35,656 bases of DNA from Promethearchaeota archaeon (GTDB lineage Archaea > Asgardarchaeota > Lokiarchaeia > Sigyniarchaeales > SOKP01): positions 1 through 35,656 of the forward strand of contig JAFGOA010000106.1 of assembly GCA_016926735.1 (NCBI GenBank), written 5' to 3'. Position numbers and translations under genes: made by a program. The notes under the pieces are model-generated. The model was given only the letters and a program-made list of their open reading frames with translations, did no database searches and was not told where the DNA came from. Below, in pieces: positions 19,593 through 33,475 of the stretch. Position 1 is the first letter of the stretch. Every line of letters starts with the position of its first letter.

Positions 19593-21044
19593 CTATTCTT
19601 TATAATCTGTGCTATTTGTATCTCGATCATAATTTGTCCAATTAGTATGAAATGATTTGTTTGTAGATTCATCTATTCTTCGATATGTATGGGCTCCAAA
19701 ATAATCTCTCTGAGCTTGTATTAAGTTAGCTGGAAGTAATTCTGATCGATATCCATCAAAGTAATTTAATGCACTCCCCATTGCTGGAATAGGAATCCCA
19801 TAATTAATTGCTCTTTTTATCGTCTTCCTCAATCCAAATTGATTTTTATTCAATACCTCTTTAAAATATGGTTCAACAATAAGATTGTCTAATTCTGGAT
19901 TATTATCATACGCTTTTTTTATTTTATTTAAAAAATTACTTCTAATGATGCATCCATTTCTCCAGATTAACGCAATATTACCAAAATTCAAATTCCAGTT
20001 ATTTAAATTACTTGCTTTTTTCATAAGTGCAAAACCCTGAGCATAAGAAATGATTTTTGCCATATAGATCGCATTCTTAAGATCATCAATTATTTGTAAT
20101 CTTTTAGTTTTAATTTTTCTTTCTGGTCCTTTTAAAACCTTGCTTGCTTTAATTCTCTCTTTTTTTTTATTAGAAAGATTTCTTGCAAAAACACTTTCTG
20201 TTATTAATGATAAAGGAACATCTATATCAAGAGCATTGATTGCAGTCCACTTTCCGGTTCCCTTTTGTCCTGCTTTATCTAAAATTTTTTTGATTAAATA
20301 ATCACCATCGCTATCCTTGTATATTAAAATTTCATAAGTAATCTTAATTAAGTAACTATTTAATTCCTCTTTATCCCATTTTTTGAAAATATTATGCATT
20401 TCTTCATAATTTAATCCAATAAAATCTCTCATTATATGGAATGCTTCACTGATAATTTGCATATCTCCATATTCTATTCCATTATGAACCATTTTAACAA
20501 AATGTCCCGCCCCATTATCTCCAATCCAATTACAACATGGATTGTTAGTATTATCTTTGGCAGATATTTTTTGAAAAATTTCCTTTACTTCTGTCCATGC
20601 TTTATAAGATCCCCCTGGCATCAAACTTGGACCATTTAGAGCTCCTTCTTCTCCTCCAGAAATACCCATTCCAATATAAAGAAACCCTTTTTCTTCAGTC
20701 TGCTTAGTTCTTCTTATTGTATCTTTATAATTTGAATTTCCGCCATCAATAATTATATCTCCTTTTTCTAAAAATGGAATTAATTTTTCAATAAGTGAAT
20801 CAATAGCTTCTCCAGCCTTAACCATTATCAATATTTTTCTTGGTTTTTTTAATTGTTTTGTTAAATCTTCGATATCTTTAGATGCTATAATATTTTTATT
20901 CTTTCCTCTTGAATTAATAAAATCATTGATTTTTTTAATCGTTCGGTTATATACTGCTACTCGATAACCTTTACTTTCTATATTTAGTGCTAGATTTTCA
21001 CCCATAACACCTAATCCTATTAATCCAATATCTGCATTTCTCAA
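19593..21044 (-). CDS. gnd: 6-phosphogluconate dehydrogenase, decarboxylating
   Basis: Oxidises and decarboxylates 6-phosphogluconate to ribulose 5-phosphate, giving NADPH. The Rossmann motif GLIGLGVMGENLALN (7-21) is followed by NRT (33-35), typical of NADP use. Also seen: SGGEEGALNGPSLMPGG (129-145), the catalytic HFVKMVHNGIEYGDM (K184, H187, N188, E191), a GQKGTGKWT loop, and a C-terminal RRID...FHTNW that closes the active site across the dimer. At 483 residues it is the long, bacterial/eukaryal form, not the short GndA type found in some haloarchaea. The TTG start has a GAGTGA SD overlapping the stop of the upstream CCG gene 7 bases away, so the two are translationally close. Together with gntK it makes a complete gluconate shunt to pentose phosphate. 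Confidence 0.95.
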   Translation of the reverse strand: MRNADIGLIGLGVMGENLALNIESKGYRVAVYNRTIKKINDFINSRGKNKNIIASKDIEDLTKQLKKPRKILIMVKAGEAIDSLIEKLIPFLEKGDIIIDGGNSNYKDTIRRTKQTEEKGFLYIGMGISGGEEGALNGPSLMPGGSYKAWTEVKEIFQKISAKDNTNNPCCNWIGDNGAGHFVKMVHNGIEYGDMQIISEAFHIMRDFIGLNYEEMHNIFKKWDKEELNSYLIKITYEILIYKDSDGDYLIKKILDKAGQKGTGKWTAINALDIDVPLSLITESVFARNLSNKKKERIKASKVLKGPERKIKTKRLQIIDDLKNAIYMAKIISYAQGFALMKKASNLNNWNLNFGNIALIWRNGCIIRSNFLNKIKKAYDNNPELDNLIVEPYFKEVLNKNQFGLRKTIKRAINYGIPIPAMGSALNYFDGYRSELLPANLIQAQRDYFGAHTYRRIDESTNKSFHTNWTNYDRDTNSTDYKE

Positions 21045-21051
21045 TTTGTAT

Positions 21052-22143
21052 TCACTCTTTTAACCCTTTTAAATTTATGATATAATTATCATCTGGTTTT
21101 TCTAATATTTCTAATAAATTATACTTATCAATCATTTCTAATAGACCAAGAATAGTAAGTCTATGATTATATTTTTTATTTGCATCATAAAAATTTCGGA
21201 AGCAAAAAGGACATTCAGTTGTAAGTATATCTGCACCTATTGTATTTGATTCAATACATCTTAAACTTGCAGCTTTTAATGAAAAACCTGGATATGCTGC
21301 TCTCACACCTCCTCCTGCACCACAACATATAGAGTCCATTTTTATATTATTCATTTCTTTAAATTGAATTTTTGTATCATGTTTAAGTTGATTAAGAATA
21401 ATTCTTGGTTTTTCAAACCAATTCTTAATTTTCTTATCAAGTTTGTTTATATCAAAGGATAAATTATCGTTTTGTTCTCTAAGTTCTTGTTCAAATTCAA
21501 TCCCAAAATGTCTCCCTAAATGACAAGGATCATGATAAGTGATAATTTTTCCCTCTAGTTCTTGGTTGTGTTTAAATCTAATTTTATTATCATTAATTAA
21601 TAAAGCAATTAGGTCAATAATGTGCAATGTATCATATTTAAGTGGTAAACCATTATTCCATTTAGGATAATCAATGGTAAAGGTTCTATAACAACCGGCA
21701 CAAGAGAAAATTATTTTTTTTATATTTTTGATACTTTCTAAATTTTTATTCATTAATTTCTGAGCTGTTTTTATAGCACCAATTCTAAAAAAGGGACTTC
21801 CACAACAGACTTCTTCTGAAATTAATGTAAAATTAATCCCTAATTGTTCTAATATTCTACACGTAGAGATGGCATTATTAACTTGCCTAAAATTTGCTGT
21901 ACAACCCACATAATAGACAATTTTATTTTTATTATTATTGAGATGTTTTTCAAAACCTGCTTCTTTTACCCACCTAAATCGATAATCTGAAGATTCTCCA
22001 TAAGGATTATCCAATTCTTCTACAAACTTTTTAATTAGTTCAAGGGAGCTATTTAGAGGAACTCTCTCTTTAGCAAAAGCTTTTTTCAGTGCTTCAATAA
22101 TATCTACCATAGGATATTTATTGTCATTTTGAATTGAACACAT
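21052..22143 (-). CDS. CCG-domain Fe-S oxidoreductase subunit (HdrB/GlpC/GlcF-like)
   Basis: Two CCG (cysteine-rich) domains. The first has C81, C113-C114, C148 and C151; the second has C207, C273-C274, C311 and C314. Each can bind a non-cubane or [4Fe-4S]-type cluster, as in HdrB and the C-terminal half of GlpC, GlcF and HdrD. The N-terminal NPYGE...RFRW linker is the one that in GlcF/GlpC/HdrD joins a 2x[4Fe-4S] ferredoxin domain, but no CxxCxxC ferredoxin motif precedes it here. The subunit therefore seems to have lost that domain or to receive electrons from a separate ferredoxin. It is the first gene of the operon with gnd, gntK and the regulator, which suggests a role in hydroxy-acid oxidation or in electron transfer linked to sugar-acid use. 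The partner flavoprotein is not in the window. Confidence 0.85.
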   Translation of the reverse strand: MCSIQNDNKYPMVDIIEALKKAFAKERVPLNSSLELIKKFVEELDNPYGESSDYRFRWVKEAGFEKHLNNNKNKIVYYVGCTANFRQVNNAISTCRILEQLGINFTLISEEVCCGSPFFRIGAIKTAQKLMNKNLESIKNIKKIIFSCAGCYRTFTIDYPKWNNGLPLKYDTLHIIDLIALLINDNKIRFKHNQELEGKIITYHDPCHLGRHFGIEFEQELREQNDNLSFDINKLDKKIKNWFEKPRIILNQLKHDTKIQFKEMNNIKMDSICCGAGGGVRAAYPGFSLKAASLRCIESNTIGADILTTECPFCFRNFYDANKKYNHRLTILGLLEMIDKYNLLEILEKPDDNYIINLKGLKE

Positions 22144-22362: not shown

Positions 22363-23163
22363 TTATTTCAACATTTTTCTTTGAAGAGCTAACATATTAC
22401 CAACATAGAAAGCTACTAATGAAGCAACTATAATAAATGGAAAAAATGTAATTATTATCAATGCTAAAACGGGTTTTACATAGATAAAATATGATGTTAG
22501 AATATATATGAAGTATAAAGTCGAGTTAATAGCTGATAATTTTAAATTTAAAGAAAAATATCCTGCAATAAGATTGGCAATACCAAATACTAAAATAAGT
22601 TCTGCTAAAGATATAAGTACTACTTGTGGTATAATACTTATTAATATCTCATCCATAGAGAAAAATCTAAAATATAAAGAAGATGCAAAATATTCTGTTG
22701 CCATAATATTCAAGTATGTAAGCAAGATTCCTAAAGGTACAAGAACTAACCATGTTTCAAACAATCTAATTTTCAAGGAAGGGGCTATTTTCCTCCTTAG
22801 ATTTATTTCTATGATGGTATCAACATGATTTACATTTTTTGCTGTTATATTATAATCAGGAGAAAAATCATCGATAAAATCCTCCAGGATATTATTAAGT
22901 ATTTTACTTACCAAAGCAGTATTATCTCGAGCGCTTACAATTGCAGCTCCAAAAATTTCTTCTTCTGGTTTTGTTTCGAGTATTAATTTATTTCCTTCCC
23001 CAAGATCTACAAATTTTATTATGCTTTCAAGTGCTTCTCTACTAAAATTAACAATAGATGTAAAAAATCCAATTAATAGATTATCATCCTGTTCTTGTTG
23101 GACAAAATTCTTAGAATATATCAATCTACCATTTGAATTTAATATATATATTTTTTTAATCAT
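22363..23163 (-). CDS. Longin-like domain protein with C-terminal membrane helices
   Basis: Residues 1-115 look like a longin/roadblock-type sheet-helix domain: KKIYILNSNGRLIYSKNF opening strands, then GFFTSIVNFSREAL as the first helix, a strand over NKLILET, and a last long helix (DNTALVSKILNNILEDFIDDF). This pattern (strand, GRxIYS, then GFF..I..FS) is that of longin domains in SNARE, adaptin and TRAPP proteins and of Asgard longins. After a charged linker (118-130) come about four hydrophobic helices (near 133-155, 170-198, 206-228 and 231-258), so the longin domain is tethered to the membrane on the cytosolic side. It has a strong GGAGG ribosome site, 7 bases before ATG. It follows the RWD/pseudo-ABC gene by 21 bases in one operon. 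The fold call is by eye and moderately strong. Confidence 0.65.
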   Translation of the reverse strand: MIKKIYILNSNGRLIYSKNFVQQEQDDNLLIGFFTSIVNFSREALESIIKFVDLGEGNKLILETKPEEEIFGAAIVSARDNTALVSKILNNILEDFIDDFSPDYNITAKNVNHVDTIIEINLRRKIAPSLKIRLFETWLVLVPLGILLTYLNIMATEYFASSLYFRFFSMDEILISIIPQVVLISLAELILVFGIANLIAGYFSLNLKLSAINSTLYFIYILTSYFIYVKPVLALIIITFFPFIIVASLVAFYVGNMLALQRKMLK

Positions 23164-23184: not shown

Positions 23185-24897
23185 TTAAGTTATCTCCAAG
23201 AATTCTACAAATTCATGAAGTGATGCTCTATATCTCTTAAAACTTTGTAGTTGTTTTCCAAAAATATGTATAATTTTTTTTATTATATTATTTGGATCTT
23301 CCTTTGGAAATAATTTATATTTTTCAAATTTTCTTTCTTCAATCACTATTGCAGTTTCTAATTCAAATAATTTTTTAATATCTTGTTGATCAGGATAATT
23401 TAGTTCAATTGATATTAATTCTGCTGATTGCGGAATTTTTTTAAGAAGCTGTTTCATAGTTCCAGAATCGACTTTTTTACCCGTTATAGTAACAATTTTT
23501 TCACATTCAGCTACTATTTTCTCTGGACCGTGAATTAAAATGGCAACATGAAATTTCATTTTAATTAATTCTAAATATCTATTTAATCGCTCTTGCTCCA
23601 ATTTAGTTATCTTTCCTTTCGGAATGGATAACATAATAATTTTAGGATTTTGGAATAGAGCTTGTGCTATTAAAAACAAATAGATTTCTAAGTGAGTAAA
23701 TTTATTTAATCTTATTTTTTTCTTTCCCAATAGACCTAATGATTCTAAGATTTTATCAATATATTCTTTTTTTCTTTTAATTCTCCTAAAAAATGAAAAT
23801 CCTTTGAATAAATGGATAATATAATAGATAATATTCTTTAATTTTTTATAGTTATATTCAGATTGTTTATTATCAATATCATTCTTTAGATTTTTTAAGT
23901 TTGATATGTTTTTGGTGATATATCTTATCGCTTTTTTCAATTTCACATTTTTTAGTTTAGGATCAATTCTATATTGTATATGAATTAAGTCTTCTAAGTC
24001 GTTTTTACTTGTTAATTGTATAAACTTACCAAAAATAGATATTACTCCTGAAAAATCAATTCTTTTACCACTGATTATATTAAAGAGTTTTTTGATGCTT
24101 AATGTTTCAATACTATCCTCAGAATTCCCTTTATATAAAAATCCAATAGATTGTCCTCTATGTACTCTAAAAGATAACTTTTCAATATTTTTTCCAATAA
24201 TAATATTATCACATAATAAATGTTGGGAATTTTTATAATAATCTTGAATTTTCTCATATTGGACTATTAAATTAATTAGGTTATTGAGTACATCAATAAT
24301 ATGAGGTGGGTTAAATTCATCCCAATTAATCAATATTTCTGAATTTATAAAATCTTCTACTCTTATAATTTTACTTAATTCCTTGGAAAAATAAAAAATT
24401 GGTCTTAGTGGATACAATTCAAAATTGATTTTAAGTTCTAAGGTTAGATTTGGAAAAGATATAAAAACTTCCCTAAAATAAGTAATATCATTTATTGAAT
24501 AATTTTCAAATTCTTCATCTAGAAGTTCTATCTCATTTTTTAATACATTTATATGATATTCTAATTCTTTAAAAATCAAATCATCAATTCTGTTTATGAT
24601 CTTTCTTGGGCTTATTAAACCATCATCATCAAAATCGGGATCAACAATTATTTGATTAAAATCAAACTCAGTTTCGATTGGAGTGTTTACTTGAACTAAA
24701 GGAAAAGCTTTTTTTAAAACGTCTTGGCTGGGGAATAATAAAACCTCAATATAACTTTTTTTATAATTTAAATCTAAAATCGTAGAAAAGCCAAATGTAT
24801 TCTTTTGATAAATCATCCAATAATGTTTAGAAAATCTAATTGCTTCTAATATCTTTTCTCTAATATGTTCTAGCTCTTCTTTTCTAGATCTAAACAA
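23185..24897 (-). CDS. Tandem UBC/RWD-like module fused to degenerate ABC ATPase
   Basis: A 570-residue two-part protein. Residues about 25-215 contain two stretches resembling UBC/RWD (E2) folds. The clearer one (140-212) has a strand pair, LYPLRPIFYF in the place of the E2 YPxxPP turn, a Trp (W192), then PPHIIDVL leading the final helix; no catalytic Cys is present. Residues 228-480 follow an ABC nucleotide-binding domain in outline, but every catalytic motif is altered: GFLYKGNSEDSIETL (252-266) at Walker A lacks GKT/S, LNKFTHLE replaces LSGGQ, and IMLSIPKG (421-428) replaces LDEP. A His at the H-loop position (H456) remains. The C-terminal 90 residues resemble the tail of drug-exporter ATPases. 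ATP hydrolysis is therefore unlikely; a scaffold or regulatory role is inferred. TTG start with an adjacent GAGAG. Confidence 0.6.
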   Translation of the reverse strand: MFRSRKEELEHIREKILEAIRFSKHYWMIYQKNTFGFSTILDLNYKKSYIEVLLFPSQDVLKKAFPLVQVNTPIETEFDFNQIIVDPDFDDDGLISPRKIINRIDDLIFKELEYHINVLKNEIELLDEEFENYSINDITYFREVFISFPNLTLELKINFELYPLRPIFYFSKELSKIIRVEDFINSEILINWDEFNPPHIIDVLNNLINLIVQYEKIQDYYKNSQHLLCDNIIIGKNIEKLSFRVHRGQSIGFLYKGNSEDSIETLSIKKLFNIISGKRIDFSGVISIFGKFIQLTSKNDLEDLIHIQYRIDPKLKNVKLKKAIRYITKNISNLKNLKNDIDNKQSEYNYKKLKNIIYYIIHLFKGFSFFRRIKRKKEYIDKILESLGLLGKKKIRLNKFTHLEIYLFLIAQALFQNPKIIMLSIPKGKITKLEQERLNRYLELIKMKFHVAILIHGPEKIVAECEKIVTITGKKVDSGTMKQLLKKIPQSAELISIELNYPDQQDIKKLFELETAIVIEERKFEKYKLFPKEDPNNIIKKIIHIFGKQLQSFKRYRASLHEFVEFLEIT

Positions 24898-25475: not shown

Positions 25476-25925
25476 ATGCAAATTTATGAGGCAGGAATAA
25501 TAATTGGAGGAATTCCAATTATAAGCGAAAATTTTATTAATCCTAATGAAAAAGATGAGGATTTAATTCATAAATGTGCATTATTATCATGTTTACTAAA
25601 TTTTGCCGAAACTTTAATTTCCCCCATAGAATCTTTTGAAAGTAATAAATATAATTTTGCATTTAGAAAAAGTGAAATAGAAACAGTAAACTCAGAAATT
25701 ATTGATATTTTTGTCTATTTAGTTCTCAACAATGATGTAAAATTTAATAAATATTTAAATAAAAAGATCAAACCCATTTTAAACGATATTCTTGATCAAT
25801 TTAAATTAAAATATTATGGTAGGGATTTCTCATATTGTACACAATTTATTCAGTTTAAAGATATTATTAAACAAATTCTGATTAAAAATAAGAAAAAGTT
25901 AGGATTCGAAAATTTAGGTATCTAA
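25476..25925 (+). CDS. Small soluble longin-like protein
   Basis: A 149-residue protein with the look of a free longin/roadblock-like domain. The first strand pair IYEAGIIIGGIPIISENF is followed by an acidic turn, a helix CALLSCLLNFAETLI at the place of the longin first helix, strands (KYNFAFRKSEI and IIDIFVYLVLN), and a long final helix (KYLNKKIKPILNDILDQFKLKYY). The C-terminal 35 residues are Lys-rich. There is no membrane helix. Several Asgard genomes encode many such longins, which are homologues of eukaryotic trafficking-protein modules. It is divergent from the operon containing the longin-TM protein and could partner with it, since longin domains often dimerise. Fold assignment is by pattern only. 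Confidence 0.55.
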   Translation: MQIYEAGIIIGGIPIISENFINPNEKDEDLIHKCALLSCLLNFAETLISPIESFESNKYNFAFRKSEIETVNSEIIDIFVYLVLNNDVKFNKYLNKKIKPILNDILDQFKLKYYGRDFSYCTQFIQFKDIIKQILIKNKKKLGFENLGI

Positions 25926-26204: not shown

Positions 26205-26942
26205 ATGTTATTATTGGGTATTAATTTGGAAAATATATTGGTCATTTTTTCAATAGAAATAATCATAGTCATATTTTTCATTATATTAGGGTTTAATCTC
26301 TTAATACCAAAAGAGGATAATCTAAATATATATTTTATTCGCTTTTTTAGACTTTTTGCTCTAGGTAATCTTTTTCTAATTGTATATTTAATTTTTATCG
26401 GGATTAACTTAAATAAAATAATTGAACTTCCACTTTATTGTATTTCAATATTTTTTCTTTGTATTGCTCTCTATCATCTTAATATTGTAAATCATTTAAT
26501 TTTAAAGTCAGATATTACTTATCAAAACTCTCAAATCAGTATATCTCTTAAGATATATTATATCTTATTATTATCAGGAATAATCTTAATTGGAGTTATT
26601 TTCAACAATTTACTATTAAATTTAGATATTATTATCATAAATTCTAATTTCTTTATTTTATTATATTCTTTTATTTTTCTTGTTATTTTTTCCATAATTC
26701 CATTATGTAAAAAAAAAAAGATTATATTTGAAAATATAAAGAATAGTGACTTAAAATTTTATTTTAGTTTATTCTATCGAGGAGTTTTTGGATTATATAC
26801 TATTTTATTTCTTGAATATTTCTCAATCTTTTTATATTTTTCAATTTTTAAGATTTTATTATATCTTCTGATGATGACTTTTTTATATTGGATAAATAAA
26901 ATACATAAAGCATTAATTAAACGAATTAAAAAAAAAAAATAA
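26205..26942 (+). CDS. Polytopic membrane protein, about seven TM helices
   Basis: Unrecognised. The 245 residues are almost entirely hydrophobic, with about seven helices (near 8-31, 43-67, 70-90, 106-125, 129-153, 180-205 and 207-228), a His-containing fourth-loop region (ALYHLNIVNHL) and a strongly basic C-terminus (KRIKKKK), which places the tail in the cytosol. No enzyme or transporter signature is visible. It follows the soluble longin-like gene by 279 bases on the same strand and ends only 9 bases from the stop of the convergent toroid-ABC gene, so the terminators must overlap. The 279-base gap before it shows nothing beyond AT-rich sequence. Confidence 0.65.
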   Translation: MLLLGINLENILVIFSIEIIIVIFFIILGFNLLIPKEDNLNIYFIRFFRLFALGNLFLIVYLIFIGINLNKIIELPLYCISIFFLCIALYHLNIVNHLILKSDITYQNSQISISLKIYYILLLSGIILIGVIFNNLLLNLDIIIINSNFFILLYSFIFLVIFSIIPLCKKKKIIFENIKNSDLKFYFSLFYRGVFGLYTILFLEYFSIFLYFSIFKILLYLLMMTFLYWINKIHKALIKRIKKKK

Positions 26943-26951
26943 AAGGTTAAT

Positions 26952-29900
26952 TTATTCCATTTCCTTTATTTTCAAAGCCTTATATCTAAAATATTCCTCC
27001 ATTTTCACATCTGATTGTTTTAATTCTGAGATTGAGTCAGTTCCAAATTCATTTTCTATTTTAATTTTGATTTCACGTAAATTAAGATCTGTTAATAATA
27101 CATAGGAAAACCCTACTTTATTTTCAAGAGCTTTTTCAACACCTTCAATCGATTCCAATTTTTGAATACTATTCTCATGAACATCTTTAAATATTAATTC
27201 AATTACTCTCCCGCTTCCAGGTAATTGAGACAATAATTCATTGGGAGATCCAAAATCAATCATACCTCTTTGTCTACCAAAAACAACGATCTTATCACAG
27301 AATCTTGATTCTTCTGGATAATGTGATATTACTAATAATGTTGTTGATAATAATTCGTTTATTCTTGTTAAAGCAAGCCATAAATTTTCTCTAACAACTG
27401 GATCTAATCCTGAGGTTGGCTCATCTAAAATACAAAAAATGGGATTATGAATCAATGCCATAGCTATACTAACCCTTCGTTTCTGACCTCCAGAAAGAGT
27501 TTTTACATGAGAATGCATTTTATCTTCAATTTCTAATCCTCTCAACAACCGTTTTGCTCTGCTTGCTATTTGTTTTTCTGTTAATCCATATTGGAACCCA
27601 AAATAGATTAAATTTTGTAAAGTGGTAAAATTATTATATATTTTACCAAGATCTTGGGGGACATAACCAAAAATTGGTCTAAATCTCTTTTTATTTTTTC
27701 TAGCATCCAATCCATAAATTTCACATTTTCCTTTATATTTTCTCATTCCTAAAAGTGCTTTTATAAAAGTAGTTTTACCAGCACCACTCTCACCTAAAAC
27801 TCCTAAAATCTTTCCATGCTCTAATTCTAAAGAGACGCCATCTACAATTATTTTTTTTCCTGAATATATTTCTAAATTTTCACAATGAATTGCATTAAAT
27901 CTTTTAAGATATTCAATATTTAACCTATCTCTAATACCTAATTTAATTTTTACGAATTTATATAGAGACATATTAAGATAGGAAATAATATTTAACATGG
28001 TAATGAGTATTAAAACTATACCTTCTGCCAATATTAACCATAATATTAATCTTGTCCACGGTATAGGATCAAACGCTTGATCATATCTTACATCTTCTAT
28101 AATAATTAATCCATAAGGAGTATTTCTTAAATCCCCTCCAAATAAAGGATAATCTCCTACACCTCCAGTAGCATTACTAAAGCAAATACGGAACCATTTA
28201 GCTAGGTTTTGAATATTTTGAGGTTGACTCCGGTAATAATATAATCCTTTTGCTCCTAAATAATTTCCCATAAAAGAAGAGGGTAAATTAAAAAATAATG
28301 AAAGATATGGTATAAGCTCAAAACTTCCATCACTTCTTTGAGAATTTTTAAGAAATTTTATCGCAGATATTCTTGAAATAGGTTCTATGTTAAAAAAATT
28401 TAAATTCTCTAACCCATAATAGGTAGATATCACATCTGAATGAAATCCTATAAATAATGAAAACCCTCCATCGGCATTTTGACTCGAATATAACCAGTGA
28501 AATAGAGCTGTCTTATTAATTACGTTCAATGAATCTAAACTATTTAAACTGCTAACAGCCCAATATGTGCTTATAATCGTAGATATGTTAGTATTTATCA
28601 AGTTAAACATTGATGTATATGCAGAATTAAAATATGAAATTATTACATCTAAATCTTCTCCTAATTTAAATCCTCCATCTTGATTTTGAAGAGTTGTAAA
28701 ATATAGTTCGGTGTTTGTTTCATTTGGGAGATATGTTATATTATAGGGATGAAAAAGATTATATAGAAATATTGCACAATATGTTGAATATATAGAAGAA
28801 TTTCTGCTTGGTTGAGGTCCAAATCCTCCATCTTCTGAGTTATAACATAATTCTACATAATGTAAAATTTTATCCATTTTTAAGAAGGTTGTGTAGTTAC
28901 TGATATCGTATTGGTAAAGTGATAAAACACCATTATAATTTGATTGAAGATTTACTTGTCCTATCAATCCATTCATTGCCTGCCTTTCATATATCCAATT
29001 ATAATACAATATCTTTTGATTTTGATAGTCCGTTGTTGCATTCTCTAGCAAAGTTATACATTTCATTGCTGCCCACCCTGATTTTGAATCTGTATTATTT
29101 ACCTCTGAAAGAGAAGAAGAACTGAATCCTCCATTTGGTTCTTGACGATCTAATATATAATTTAAACTATAAGTTTCATTAAATGGATCAATTGTGATAT
29201 TTAAGATAGTTTGAGAAGCAATTGCATAATAGGTTGACCCTACATTAGGGACTCCTAATATCGTATCGGAATACCCTCCGGTGATATTCCTTCTACCAGT
29301 AAAATAAGATTCAAATACTATCATTTCAGAAGGGGTATAGGTATAATTTATTCCTAAATGGGCTTGAATACCAAAATGAGTGGTTTCTTGTGTAACAATT
29401 GTACTGTAGCTTGTTAAAGCATATCCTCCTTGTGCTAAATATCGTGTAGAATTGATGAAATTTGTAATATTTACATTTTGTATAAGTGAATACGCATTAA
29501 ATCTTTTAGCTATTTCAATAGCGTAATATGTTGAGATAATATCCGATTGCTCTATTAATGGATGATATCTAAAGCCCCATCCATTTTTTTCTAAAGAATT
29601 GTTAACAAAATTAATTATATTATCAATTTTCCCTTTTCTTAAAGGATCGTCTAGATATGATTTATTAAGTAAATCTAATATTTTAATTACTTTATATGTT
29701 GAATATAAACTTCCAATCCCTCCAATATCAGAAAAAGAACCATCAGAATTTTGTTTCTCAGATAAATAGTCTAAAAAAAAAAGCTGATTTTCGGAATTAA
29801 GAAAATTATTATTTATAGGATTTATAAGTTTAGTTAATTCAGATTCATATGAAATACTAGAAAAATTTACTGAATCTATTGCTCGATAACATTCCTCTAT

Positions 29901-30026
29901 TGATGGTTCTATAAAAAGACCATTATCTGGATTTTGATGAGTATATGAAAAATAAAACATGTTATCTTTATATTTTATAACTTCTTCATCTGTAAAGTAT
30001 TGTACAAATGGAAAATTAATGATCAA
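26952..30026 (-). CDS. Extracellular toroid repeat domain fused through a TM helix to an ABC ATPase
   Basis: Residues about 20-645 hold some 11 prenyltransferase/terpene-cyclase-like toroid repeats with cores such as QNSDGSF (92), EPNGGF (296), SEDGGFG (397), QNQDGGF (448), QNADGGF (516) and QRSDGSF (563), each followed by a STYYAI-type helix. Many N-x-S/T sequons fit an outside location. One TM helix (about 658-684) crosses to a complete ABC ATPase: Walker A GESGAGKTT (745-753), signature LSGGQ (844-848), Walker B CILDEP (865-870) and H-loop H902. The tail resembles drug-exporter ATPases. Eleven repeats exceed the usual five or six, so two toroids are possible. It is the last gene of an operon with a second ATPase and two ABC-2 permeases. 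The start shown is TTG, but the true N-terminus probably lies upstream. Confidence 0.85.
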   Translation of the reverse strand: MIINFPFVQYFTDEEVIKYKDNMFYFSYTHQNPDNGLFIEPSIEECYRAIDSVNFSSISYESELTKLINPINNNFLNSENQLFFLDYLSEKQNSDGSFSDIGGIGSLYSTYKVIKILDLLNKSYLDDPLRKGKIDNIINFVNNSLEKNGWGFRYHPLIEQSDIISTYYAIEIAKRFNAYSLIQNVNITNFINSTRYLAQGGYALTSYSTIVTQETTHFGIQAHLGINYTYTPSEMIVFESYFTGRRNITGGYSDTILGVPNVGSTYYAIASQTILNITIDPFNETYSLNYILDRQEPNGGFSSSSLSEVNNTDSKSGWAAMKCITLLENATTDYQNQKILYYNWIYERQAMNGLIGQVNLQSNYNGVLSLYQYDISNYTTFLKMDKILHYVELCYNSEDGGFGPQPSRNSSIYSTYCAIFLYNLFHPYNITYLPNETNTELYFTTLQNQDGGFKLGEDLDVIISYFNSAYTSMFNLINTNISTIISTYWAVSSLNSLDSLNVINKTALFHWLYSSQNADGGFSLFIGFHSDVISTYYGLENLNFFNIEPISRISAIKFLKNSQRSDGSFELIPYLSLFFNLPSSFMGNYLGAKGLYYYRSQPQNIQNLAKWFRICFSNATGGVGDYPLFGGDLRNTPYGLIIIEDVRYDQAFDPIPWTRLILWLILAEGIVLILITMLNIISYLNMSLYKFVKIKLGIRDRLNIEYLKRFNAIHCENLEIYSGKKIIVDGVSLELEHGKILGVLGESGAGKTTFIKALLGMRKYKGKCEIYGLDARKNKKRFRPIFGYVPQDLGKIYNNFTTLQNLIYFGFQYGLTEKQIASRAKRLLRGLEIEDKMHSHVKTLSGGQKRRVSIAMALIHNPIFCILDEPTSGLDPVVRENLWLALTRINELLSTTLLVISHYPEESRFCDKIVVFGRQRGMIDFGSPNELLSQLPGSGRVIELIFKDVHENSIQKLESIEGVEKALENKVGFSYVLLTDLNLREIKIKIENEFGTDSISELKQSDVKMEEYFRYKALKIKEME

Positions 30027-30114
30027 GTCAATAATAATTTCCCCAGAAAAGATTAATAATATTAATGTAGCATATAATACTCTTCTTTTTTTTTTTCGAT
30101 CTATAGTGCCTCAC
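30027..30114 (-). other. In-frame N-terminal signal anchor of the toroid-ABC gene without canonical start
   Basis: Upstream of the TTG the same frame stays open to a TGA at 30111-30113 and encodes a basic stretch (RKKKRR) followed by VLYATLILLIFSG, a classical signal anchor needed to export the toroid. No ATG, GTG or TTG exists in this frame. A GTG at 30112-30114, just after the upstream stop codon, is in another frame and would join if the T11 tract at 30086-30096 (A11 on the coding strand) were one base shorter. Either the assembly has one base too many, the gene uses a rare start such as ATA at 30102-30104 behind GAGG, or slippage on the A tract restores the frame. Confidence 0.6.
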
Positions 30115-30120
30115 TCTTTT

Positions 30121-31119
30121 TTATTTTTCTTTAAATTCTTTTTCTTCTTCTTCTTTAATCCTAAGTTGAAAATATCTTCTAAAATTAGCTATATCTCTAC
30201 TCATTGATATGATTTTAATATTATTATTAATAATATATTCAATAAGATTTGAATAATTTTGCTCTAAATCTTGAATGAATACTTCTATTACGTTATTTCC
30301 TGTTCTGGAAATGTCTTTACATAATGGATATTGTTTAATTTTTTTTATTATTTTTTCATCTAAATTTTCAATAGTAAACCTTACTAATTGGCCATCGCTA
30401 GCTAATGATGATATAAGCTTATATGGCGTATCAAACTCTAATAATTTACCTTCTCTTAAAATCGCCGTTTTATCACAAACAAGAGCAGCCTCCAGATCAT
30501 GAGTTATTATAAACATTGTAGTCCCTAGTTTTCTATTTAGTTTTTTAAGATAATTAAGAATATCATATCTTTTATTTGCATCTACACCTGTAGTAGGTTC
30601 ATCTAAAAAAAGTACACTTGGTTTATGAATTAATCCTATTGCCATTGATACTCTTTTTTTCTCACCTCCACTAAGGTTTTTTAGAGGATTGTTCCATGTA
30701 TCCTCTGGAATATCTAATATTTTAAATAAATCTCTTGCTATTTTTAATGCGTTATCTTTTTTTATACCATAATTTGAAGCAAAAATCTCGACATTTACTA
30801 ATGGACTGAGGTCATAGTATAAATTTAATAATTCTAATTGAGGAACATATCCTATTTTTTCTAATATTTTTGAATTGTTCTGTTTTTTACCTGGAGTTAT
30901 ATTTGTAACGGTTACAATACCTTTCCAATGTTTTTTTTTAATTTGACAAGTTAATACTCTGATAATTGTCGTTTTACCCGCTCCTGATATTCCAAACAAA
31001 CCTATAATTTCCCCTTTATAAACTTGAAATGAAACATTATTGATTATCTGTTTTTTTTTAAAAAAAACTTCTAAATTTTTCACATTTACAACAAGATTTT
31101 TAGGACTTTTATTCTTCAA
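30121..31119 (-). CDS. ABC transporter ATPase (drug/lipid exporter type)
   Basis: A complete nucleotide-binding protein of the ABC-2 exporter (DrrA/CcmA-like) group. Walker A is GISGAGKTT (43-51), the Q-loop is in YVPQ (91-94), the signature is LSGGE (149-153), Walker B is VLFLDEPTTG (169-178) and the H-loop is H207 in ITHD. Residues 230-332 form the extra C-terminal domain found in exporter ATPases. The TTG start is preceded by GAGG at a spacing of 8 and lies 3 bases after the stop of the permease gene. It is the natural partner of the ATPase half of the toroid fusion, so the working transporter may use two different ATPases with two permeases. The substrate is unknown. Confidence 0.93.
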   Translation of the reverse strand: MKNKSPKNLVVNVKNLEVFFKKKQIINNVSFQVYKGEIIGLFGISGAGKTTIIRVLTCQIKKKHWKGIVTVTNITPGKKQNNSKILEKIGYVPQLELLNLYYDLSPLVNVEIFASNYGIKKDNALKIARDLFKILDIPEDTWNNPLKNLSGGEKKRVSMAIGLIHKPSVLFLDEPTTGVDANKRYDILNYLKKLNRKLGTTMFIITHDLEAALVCDKTAILREGKLLEFDTPYKLISSLASDGQLVRFTIENLDEKIIKKIKQYPLCKDISRTGNNVIEVFIQDLEQNYSNLIEYIINNNIKIISMSRDIANFRRYFQLRIKEEEEKEFKEK

Positions 31120-31122
31120 AAA

Positions 31123-32313
31123 TTAAACCTCATATCGTCTTTTATAGAAAACCAGAAATGTAATTATATTAAGAGCTAAACTGACAAACAACAATACATA
31201 AAAGTGATATTCAAATATTGAATTTCCTTTAGATAATACACTATTTACTAATGGATTTGCATGGGATAATGGTAAAATCTGAGCAAATAGATTCAAATAT
31301 ATTGGCATACTCCCTAAAGGAACAAATAATCCACTTAGTAGAATTATTATTATAAAAGAAGCAAAGAATAATTGATTTGCTTCTGTTTTTGATTTGCTTA
31401 AAGAACTTATAAATAATCCCATGCTTATCCCAGAATATCCAATGATATATATTGCTCCAAATAACTCAAAAATAGAACCTCTTATGTATAATCCACTAGC
31501 TAATGCAGCTGATATGATTCCCAAATCTTGGACCAATAAAACTGCTGAATATGTTATATATTTGGATAAGAGAATTTCTGATTTTTTTACAGGTGTTAGC
31601 AAAAGTCTGGATATAGGATTTTCTTTTACAATCACAAGAATAGTTAATACATTTGCTATACCAAAAACCATTAATGGGAGTAATTTTATGAAATTTGCAT
31701 TTAATCCAAGATTATAATTAGAAGGTACTGAAAACTTTTCAAAAACCTTTAATTCAAATTGGGGTGAAAGATTATTATCTCTAACAAAGATTTGAATTGA
31801 ATCATATACAGCATTAATATTATCTTGTATTTTAGAAACTCTTGAAGAATCAATTATACATTCTATTATTCCAGGATATCCTAATTGTAACAATTCTGTG
31901 AATTCTATAGGTATAACTATAATAGTATTTATATTACCTATTAATAATTCTTGTCTTGCCATTTCCATGGAATAAGGTTCGTTTGTAGAATTATAATAAC
32001 CCTTTAGATCCAACAAATTTGATTTATTTACAGCTTTAAGATATGGAATTGTATAATTATCCCATGTTGATGATGTATAATTATTGGGATTTATGAATGT
32101 ATTTGAATCGTTTGATACGACAATAACGGGTAAGGGAGCAGGATCCCCTGCTTCCTCTGTCATAAAAGCAAATAATAAAATAATACCCGGAGGGATTAGC
32201 AGAGCAATAAGTAAATTCCATGGATCGATTTTTATTAGTCTAAATTCTTTTTTTATCATCTTTAATATTCGAAATAACTGGGTCTTCAATTTTTTTCTAA
32301 GATTTTGTTGCAT
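31123..32313 (-). CDS. ABC-2 type permease (second of pair)
   Basis: Integral membrane subunit of an exporter. There is a cytosolic basic N-terminus, one TM helix (about 33-51), a large extracellular domain (about 52-205, with several sequons), then five more helices, including the conserved ABC-2 region GISMGLFISSLSKSKTEANQ and the following FVPLGSMP loop. Length 396 is normal for ABC2_membrane_3 proteins. It is clearly paralogous to the neighbouring 384-residue permease (both share MGLFISS...ANQL and the same topology), so the two probably form a heterodimer. The start ATG has a GGAGG site inside the upstream gene's end; the gap to that gene is only 7 bases. Confidence 0.9.
   Translation of the reverse strand: MQQNLRKKLKTQLFRILKMIKKEFRLIKIDPWNLLIALLIPPGIILLFAFMTEEAGDPAPLPVIVVSNDSNTFINPNNYTSSTWDNYTIPYLKAVNKSNLLDLKGYYNSTNEPYSMEMARQELLIGNINTIIVIPIEFTELLQLGYPGIIECIIDSSRVSKIQDNINAVYDSIQIFVRDNNLSPQFELKVFEKFSVPSNYNLGLNANFIKLLPLMVFGIANVLTILVIVKENPISRLLLTPVKKSEILLSKYITYSAVLLVQDLGIISAALASGLYIRGSIFELFGAIYIIGYSGISMGLFISSLSKSKTEANQLFFASFIIIILLSGLFVPLGSMPIYLNLFAQILPLSHANPLVNSVLSKGNSIFEYHFYVLLFVSLALNIITFLVFYKRRYEV
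31128..31131 (-). promoter_or_regulatory. Shine-Dalgarno site deciding a TTG start
   Basis: GAGG lies 8 bases before the TTG of the ABC ATPase gene and inside the last codons of the permease gene. This supports the TTG start, since no ATG occurs nearby in frame. Confidence 0.55.
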
Positions 32314-32320
32314 AATTAAA

Positions 32321-33475
32321 TTAAACCTCCACTTTTTTAAATAAGTAGGATAAATACGCTAAAATTACATATACAGTAGAGATTATTAATAATCCTGAAA
32401 ATAATCCAAAATGAATCGACACTCCTTTTAATGTTATATCAAGAACTAATGGAATACCATAACCTAAAGGGAATGAATAGATTATTACTTTCATAGATGG
32501 AGGAAGACTTCCAACACTTACAAATTGTCCTGAAAAAAGCAATACTACAATAAAAAATACCATATATAATTGGTTTGCTTGTTGATCTGTTTTACTTATT
32601 GAAGATATAAATAATCCCATTGAAACACCGCATAATCCTATTGCTAGAAATACTAAAAACAATTCAAATAATGATCCTAAACAATAAAGCCCAAAAATAG
32701 CAGTTGCGATAAATATTTCACCTGCTTGAAGAATCATAATTAATGAATTAGCTATTAATTTACTTAATATGATTGATTTTTTTGATGTGGGTGTAATTAA
32801 CATTCTCGGTAATGGCCCTTCAGAAACGATTGATAAACATGAAAGATTCATGGTTGTACCTATTATTATTAAAGGTATTGTTAAAGCAAACGCATAATTT
32901 AATACTTGGGATTCCCAAAAAGGAACCTCAAATTCTAAATAGGGAATTAACATAGAAAAGTTAGCAGTTTTTCCTATTTCTAGTTTAAATAGTGAAATAG
33001 GCTCTAACATTGAAACATTAATTGATTTTATAGCGTCAAAATTACTTGCATCAATGAAATATAATAATTCCGTGTTTACATTATTTTCGATAGTTTCTGA
33101 AAAATTTTCTACTAAAACTATAAAAACATCAATAATTTCATTTTTTAGCATCTGTTCACATTCAATATAAGCATTATTATACGCAAATTCATTAGATACA
33201 TTATAATAAGTCTCTAAACCAAAAGAAGTAAGATTATTTTGAAAAATTGAAATAAAAACATCATCATATTCAGTAGAATTAGAAGGAAAATCACCAAAAC
33301 AATCCATATCGTCTTTAGTTATTATAGCGGCTCTAAAAAATCCCGATGGCCCTCCTCCAGATGTTAATCCGAAAATTATTATTAAAATAAGTGGGATTGT
33401 AAATAATAAAATTAGAGTTCTTTTATCACTTCGTAATCTTCCTAGCTCTTTCCTTACTAAACCACTTATATACAT
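32321..33475 (-). CDS. ABC-2 type permease (first of pair)
   Basis: First gene of the four-gene exporter operon. It has TM1 near 20-40 after a basic N-terminus, an extracellular domain of about 160 residues with sequons and an acidic character, then five TM helices with the ABC-2 motif GVSMGLFISSISKTDQQANQL and a following VSVGSLPP loop. Length (384) and topology match the next gene, pointing to duplication. In related exporters (DrrB/CcmB/YhfE-like) such subunits move drugs, lipids or polysaccharides; nothing here fixes the cargo. The 154-base space upstream should contain the operon promoter; it shows only AT-rich sequence with weak inverted repeats. Confidence 0.9.
   Translation of the reverse strand: MYISGLVRKELGRLRSDKRTLILLFTIPLILIIIFGLTSGGGPSGFFRAAIITKDDMDCFGDFPSNSTEYDDVFISIFQNNLTSFGLETYYNVSNEFAYNNAYIECEQMLKNEIIDVFIVLVENFSETIENNVNTELLYFIDASNFDAIKSINVSMLEPISLFKLEIGKTANFSMLIPYLEFEVPFWESQVLNYAFALTIPLIIIGTTMNLSCLSIVSEGPLPRMLITPTSKKSIILSKLIANSLIMILQAGEIFIATAIFGLYCLGSLFELFLVFLAIGLCGVSMGLFISSISKTDQQANQLYMVFFIVVLLFSGQFVSVGSLPPSMKVIIYSFPLGYGIPLVLDITLKGVSIHFGLFSGLLIISTVYVILAYLSYLFKKVEV
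32326..32330 (-). promoter_or_regulatory. Shine-Dalgarno site within the upstream permease end
   Basis: GGAGG overlaps the last two codons of the first permease gene, 12 bases before the next ATG. This is consistent with translational coupling of the two permeases. Confidence 0.45.

Follow-up and report, generated by a model that had tools for sequence, protein, structure and literature searches.

A conserved, Lokiarchaeia-restricted fusion of an alpha/alpha-toroid to an ABC ATPase on an ABC-2 exporter chassis

In the GldA-GldF-GldG system, an ABC-2 ATPase and permease are accompanied by an extracytoplasmic auxiliary. ABC complexes that cooperate with an extracytoplasmic protein are also represented by NosDFY-NosL and YbbAP-TesA, where YbbAP has been proposed to extract hydrophobic compounds for its outside partner (PMC12646458); in both of these the outside partners are separate chains of other folds, unlike the toroid described below. 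A survey of Asgard transporters makes no mention of a toroid-ABC architecture (PMC7997004), and no description of a toroid-ABC chain was found in literature searches. Here, such a chain is described from a stretch of lokiarchaeial DNA of 35,656 nucleotides (hereafter the window), which belongs to a genome of 3.88 Mb that is 99% complete. The toroid-ABC fusion is a real, conserved and lineage-restricted new architecture on the known ABC-2 exporter chassis, and the coordinates of its features and of related loci are collected in Table 1.

Table 1. Features of the toroid-ATPase operon in the window, and related loci in other genomes.
Feature	Position	Strand	Remarks
ABC-2 permease 1 (PF12698), first operon gene	32321..33475	-	Pfam E 3.3e-20; syntenic in nearly all relatives
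ABC-2 permease 2 (PF12698)	31123..32313	-	Pfam E 3.5e-25; syntenic
ATPase 1 (NBD1), separate chain	30121..31119	-	PF00005 E 5.9e-25; motifs intact
Shine-Dalgarno-like GAGTGAGG ahead of fusion gene	30109..30116	-	weak in the window
Probable non-canonical start codon ATA	30102..30104	-	no ATG/GTG/TTG upstream of TM1; aligned near-cognates in relatives
Toroid-ATPase fusion gene	26952..30104	-	1,050 aa from ATA; coordinates include stop
TM1 (signal anchor)	30018..30074	-	conserved in alignment; model helix 3-30; preceded by DRKKKRR
Predicted extracellular double alpha/alpha-toroid (PF00432)	28092..30002	-	about 12 hairpins; Zn ligands absent; low K+R
TM2	27969..28055	-	model helix 680-721; long predicted helix continues toward ATPase
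ABC ATPase domain NBD2 (PF00005)	27231..27890	-	E 9e-28
NBD2 Walker A	27768-27794	-	GESGAGKTT
NBD2 LSGGQ	27483-27497	-	
NBD2 Walker B	27402-27440	-	ILDEP
NBD2 H-loop	27318-27329	-	ISHY
C-terminal domain after ATPase	26973..27209	-	model strands and helices 966-1044
Degenerate ATPase partner	23185..24897	-	RWD-like N-terminal region (weak) and degenerate ABC domain; operon synteny
Longin-TM partner	22363..23163	-	N-terminal longin-like domain (weak) and 3-4 TM helices; synteny
Sister pseudo-subtilase loci	L163:3174-8033, L164:10803-16088, L165-L169		
Toroid-ATP-grasp loci	L065:3084-9737, L069:7713-14430, L071:11360-15550, L066:7517-15097		

The initial annotation of the window had proposed that one chain joins an intact ABC ATPase to an extracellular toroid, and this was borne out: the frame is open from stop to stop over positions 26955-30110 of the minus strand (1,052 codons, no internal stops), and Pfam finds both PF00432 (E 1.6e-32) and PF00005 in this single frame. 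The ATPase part, NBD2, carries the full motif set, kept invariant as in NBD1, with a Q-loop (VPQD) in addition to the motifs in Table 1, and the C-terminal domain that follows it has aligned counterparts (hhalign) in NBD1 as well as in the degenerate ATPase of the same operon. The chain is predicted to run from a basic cytoplasmic N-terminus through TM1, the extracellular toroid and TM2 to the ATPase. Basic residues lie in the N-terminus before TM1 and in the flank after TM2, and K+R content is 5.5% in the toroid vs 14.4% in the ATPase (mean of 32 homologs); because of this positive-inside pattern and charge contrast the toroid is placed outside and the ATPase inside, as first annotated, and the toroid is not predicted to be cytosolic. 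Instead of the single TM helix reported at first, two were found, since TM1 lies upstream of every ATG, GTG and TTG in the fusion frame and so escaped both the mechanical ORF list and the first description. Sequons, which had been noted in the toroid repeats, are enriched there (484 seen vs 284 expected), but as proof of an outside location they were rejected, the cytoplasmic ATPase part being equally enriched (105 seen vs 51 expected). The AlphaFold prediction of the whole chain, which had been recommended as a check and was run on 24 sequences, has a mean pLDDT of 86, falling below 50 at model residues 712-727, the linker between TM2 and the ATPase.

Translation of the fusion in the window probably starts at ATA, as judged from aligned start sites. 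In most fusion genes of Loki-family relatives, a Shine-Dalgarno core GGTG/GGTGA is present, and ATA, ATC, ATT or ACG stands in frame 4-5 nt past it; this near-cognate site is aligned across loci L014-L044 and L084-L107, with TTG at the aligned site in one locus (L017) and at a nearby position in two, and outgroup fusion genes have ATG at the same spacing from the Shine-Dalgarno. In 20/25 fusion loci, the stretch from the preceding stop to the conserved N-terminus holds no ATG, GTG or TTG. Elsewhere in the operon, the same gap was seen in none of the genes for permease 1 (0/21), the degenerate ATPase (0/25) and the longin-TM protein (0/23), and in 4/24 genes for ATPase 1 and 7/21 for permease 2, the N-termini of both of which are more variable; the rows behind all these counts are related by descent and do not represent independent events. 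The swaps among Ile, Thr and Leu near-cognates at the start site are not predicted from protein conservation alone. The TTG at 30026, given as the start in the ORF list, was rejected, as it drops the conserved TM1 and as relatives have ATA, ATC, ATT, ACG or TTG at the aligned position. In a review, AUG, GUG and UUG are listed as archaeal start codons (PMC7531240), and the fusion gene poses a testable question, namely whether archaea closely related to eukaryotes can use AUA as a conserved start codon.

Family, phylum-wide and class-wide searches, of the kind that had been suggested for Asgard genomes, recovered the fusion in a total of 43 genomes, all of the class Lokiarchaeia, and always as a single frame (1,020-1,230 aa); the architecture was absent outside Lokiarchaeia in the searches made, and among named records only Lokiarchaeota and Helarchaeota carry it. 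In the window's family, the full-length fusion is one frame in 35/61 genomes and 8/9 genera. It is missing in the other 26/61 (~40%), some of which are incomplete, which suggests that it is probably not essential. At 25 other toroid loci checked from a scan of named genomes, no ABC ATPase lay in frame or close by, and no toroid copies were found at the other ABC ATPases of the source genome. It had been cautioned that closely related genomes might reveal two separate genes; they have the same single gene. That two genes were joined by misassembly or frameshift, a reading favoured only by the unusual architecture, is vanishingly improbable and is refuted, since the same single-frame fusion occurs in 43 separately assembled genomes whose toroid parts are about 30-76% identical, which also excludes chance. 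A small separate PF00432 protein (376-aa frame) is encoded elsewhere in the source genome (L009, L080; G000:C100:42204-42710), and similar small PF00432 proteins occur in many Asgard genomes.

A fold search with the whole-chain model gave only ATPases among the matches listed, and the toroid was therefore modelled separately (pTM 0.90). The model has ~24-25 helices, most simply read as two six-hairpin rings, so that the toroid repeats first described stand, while their count of about 11 gives way to ~12 hairpins in two toroids. The closest solved folds are Rab geranylgeranyltransferase (GGTase)-type beta subunits (TMt 0.69-0.71), which cover about half of the toroid over ~293 aligned columns, and the sequence profile of the Rab GGTase beta subunit matches it with an E of about 1e-25; this subunit is cytosolic, single and Zn-dependent, as opposed to the toroid here, which is double, predicted to be extracellular, and has its Zn ligands replaced. 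Squalene-hopene cyclase spans the full length of the toroid (TMq 0.43) with an rmsd of about 12, which suggests that the two rings are probably arranged differently from those of the cyclase.

The toroid has the PF00432 alpha/alpha-toroid fold of protein prenyltransferase beta subunits; it lies between two TM helices in a positive-inside topology rather than in the cytosol, and no prenyltransferase alpha subunit was found among the operon proteins scanned with Pfam. In the HMMER alignment, T511, I513 and S562 occupy the positions of the Zn ligands Asp, Cys and His, and an alternative register, set by eye at the last hairpin, where the PDB alignments end short, gives S611, F613 and an invariant N663. 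DxDD is absent in 30/32 toroid homologs and present in two, QW motifs were not found in any of the 32, and neither was a GCGEQ-type thioester (0/32), so that, with the probably different double-barrel arrangement, the features of squalene/terpene cyclases are lacking. An active extracellular enzyme, a transferase or cyclase acting on the exported product, could be argued from PF00432 membership and from an invariant GD-P-FG-DLRN region that might be an unrecognised active site. Such an enzyme is nevertheless very improbable, given the missing Zn ligands, DxDD and thioester, and given that prenyl diphosphates are cytosolic. With the known toroid catalytic motifs lost, the toroid is rather predicted to bind than to catalyse.

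Most inner helices of the toroid start with a conserved aromatic residue, which appears compatible with a hydrophobic ligand, yet is typical of a generic PF00432 scaffold, and the fold matches of the fused NBD include the lipid exporters ABCA1, ABCA3, ABCA4 and ABCA7. Together with the Rab GGTase-type beta subunits as top fold matches, these features would suit a toroid that retains the GGTase-II prenyl-binding cavity and accepts isoprenoid lipid as the ABC-2 permeases extrude it. A lipid acceptor of this kind is unlikely, however, as the inner-helix aromatics are generic to the family, the ABCA likeness concerns a generic ATPase, and the pseudo-subtilase ectodomain of a sister exporter, described below, points rather to a peptide or protein.

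The operon that had been annotated, with a second ATPase and two permeases beside the fusion, was recovered, the gaps from permease 1 through permease 2 and ATPase 1 to the toroid-ATPase being 7, 3 and 16 nt and the second ATPase being intact (invariant Walker A, LSGGE, DEP and H). In nearly all relatives the operon order is kept, with permease, permease, ATPase 1 and toroid-ATPase 2, and in most of them the genes for the degenerate ATPase-like protein and the longin-TM protein come next. Permeases of PF12698/PF01061 encoded beside two NBDs with complete motifs identify the genes of an ABC-2 exporter, whose subunits would form a physical complex, with NBD1 as the presumed heterodimer partner of NBD2; no recognisable cargo gene was found in the operon. 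DrrA (TIGR01188) is the best subfamily profile for both ATPases, at 164.8 and 178.8 bits, below the curated cut-off of 312, and the permeases are DrrB-like; DrrA has neither TM helices nor an ectodomain, unlike the toroid-ATPase. The GldA profile (TIGR03522) also matches NBD1 and NBD2, at 113.0 and 129.9 bits, below its cut-off of 402.6, and in contrast to GldA-GldF-GldG the toroid system lacks an auxiliary domain and has two different ATPases and two different permeases. NosF also ranks with the top fold matches for the fused ATPase.

Across the tabulated alleles, the degenerate ATPase has lost Walker A, LSGGQ and the Walker B acids, and its C-terminal ~300 residues match the ATPase profile with 99.6% probability over 301 columns (hhalign); its N-terminal part possibly comprises two RWD/UBC-like domains, with one weak Pfam match. 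Some members of the longin-TM family match Sybindin, Intu_longin or Clat_adaptor (best E 0.004-0.2). Two convergent genes, at 25476-25925 and 26205-26942 of the plus strand, stand between the fusion and these two downstream partners in the window's genus only, among the loci compared, and this insertion makes the degenerate ATPase and longin-TM genes a separate unit there. Of the convergent pair, one product is small and soluble and the other has 6 TM helices. Downstream of the operon, at 19593-22143 of the minus strand, a 6-phosphogluconate dehydrogenase gene lies beside a TfrB/HdrB-type gene.

A class-wide search with the ATPase part alone identified a sister exporter in Lokiarchaeia (loci L163-L169), which shares with the toroid system the same two ATPase lineages, the same kind of ABC-2 permease pair and a large outside module. 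In this sister system, full-length copies of ATPase 2 (554-668 aa) lack a TM helix and begin with a cytoplasmic domain, and their NBD2 is 39-46% identical to that of the toroid system. The outside module is carried on its own chain, as opposed to the toroid fused in cis to ATPase 2: it is a secreted protein of 1,278-1,762 aa with a C-terminal TM helix, encoded next to ATPase 2. In the three of these ectoproteins that were scanned, a subtilase (S8) domain and a DUF4350/ABC_transp_aux (GldG-like) region were found, and all seven align; the catalytic Ser is replaced in 7/7 and the His also in 5/7. A weak MBTPS1-like region was noted in the pseudo-subtilase, and in the Helarchaeota sister ATPase 2 (L167:7902-9761) the N-terminal region matches PCI and UFM1-ligase/DDRGK models (E 1e-6 to 1e-9).

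The NBD tree groups the toroid-ATPases into a single clade (98/95), which branches within the sister exporter's ATPase-2 clade; the ATPase 1 sequences of both systems make up another clade. The tree shows a single origin of the fusion, most simply read as a single replacement, where an exporter with a separate outside protein would have given rise to an exporter whose ATPase 2 carries a fused toroid. Among the genera of the window's family, g6 has the sister ATPase and lacks the toroid system, and in some other genomes the two systems occur together, once on the same contig.

These comparisons bear on what the toroid does for the attached motor. It was suggested in the initial annotation that outside ligand binding is coupled directly to the ATPase through a single helix, and in a related reading the toroid is an outside-in receptor: on sensing a ligand outside the cell it would switch the attached ATPase, and the exporter would be active only with ligand. 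While one covalent chain links the outside domain to the ATPase, the GD-P-FG-DLRN region is conserved, and the longin-like and degenerate-ATPase partners suggest regulation, such a receptor is rather unlikely: rigid-rod coupling through a single helix is unsupported, given the low-confidence linker after TM2 and the presence of two helices, and the sister outside module is attached to no ATPase, which argues against in-cis signalling as an ancestral trait of this type of exporter. The outside module would accordingly be part of the work of the exporter itself and not of a signalling circuit made by fusion. The other suggestion made at first, that the toroid is a scaffold on which the cargo matures or binds, lies closer to the evidence than direct coupling insofar as the sister ectomodule fits cargo handling.

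We give about an even chance to the reading that the fusion provides the second of the two different ATPase subunits in a Lokiarchaeia-specific ABC-2 exporter with two different permeases, with a non-catalytic outside cargo-handling module in cis. As we infer the complex, the cargo, the cavity ligand and the direction of coupling, NBD1 and NBD2 would pair beneath permeases 1 and 2 and push cargo outward, and the toroid, set by the fusion at one per transporter, would be seated over the outer mouth of the permeases, where it would receive, hold or pass on cargo as a non-catalytic ring. The cargo would most simply be bound in the conserved aromatic cavity of the toroid, and the degenerate ATPase and the longin-TM protein may be accessory or regulatory subunits at its cytoplasmic face.

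A wider proposal, possible though held tentatively, is that dead-enzyme ectodomains (first a pseudo-subtilase that includes a GldG-like part, later a silent double toroid) have been exchanged on one archaeal ABC-2 chassis, where they would handle cargo or sense. The toroid version, fused to the motor, would be joined by a third, dead ATPase, by a longin-type protein of a sort that in eukaryotes regulates small GTPases, and by a conserved AUA/AUC/ACG initiation that would limit expression. The fusion is a natural test of joining an outside domain to an ABC motor, for which the unjoined sister system is a built-in control, and it raises the testable question of whether, in these close relatives of eukaryotes, longin-like proteins have a role in regulating transporters.

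Predicted extracellular toroids that are tied to the membrane and to ATP-using cytoplasmic modules are also found in other Asgard toroid-7TM-ATP-grasp proteins, where an ATP-grasp ligase takes the place of the ABC ATPase and the partners are unrelated. In three such loci that were scanned from other Asgard lineages, a toroid protein adjoins a ~1,400-aa toroid-7TM_transglut-ATPgrasp_ST fusion, and at L066 a transglutaminase gene follows the toroid-ATP-grasp genes.
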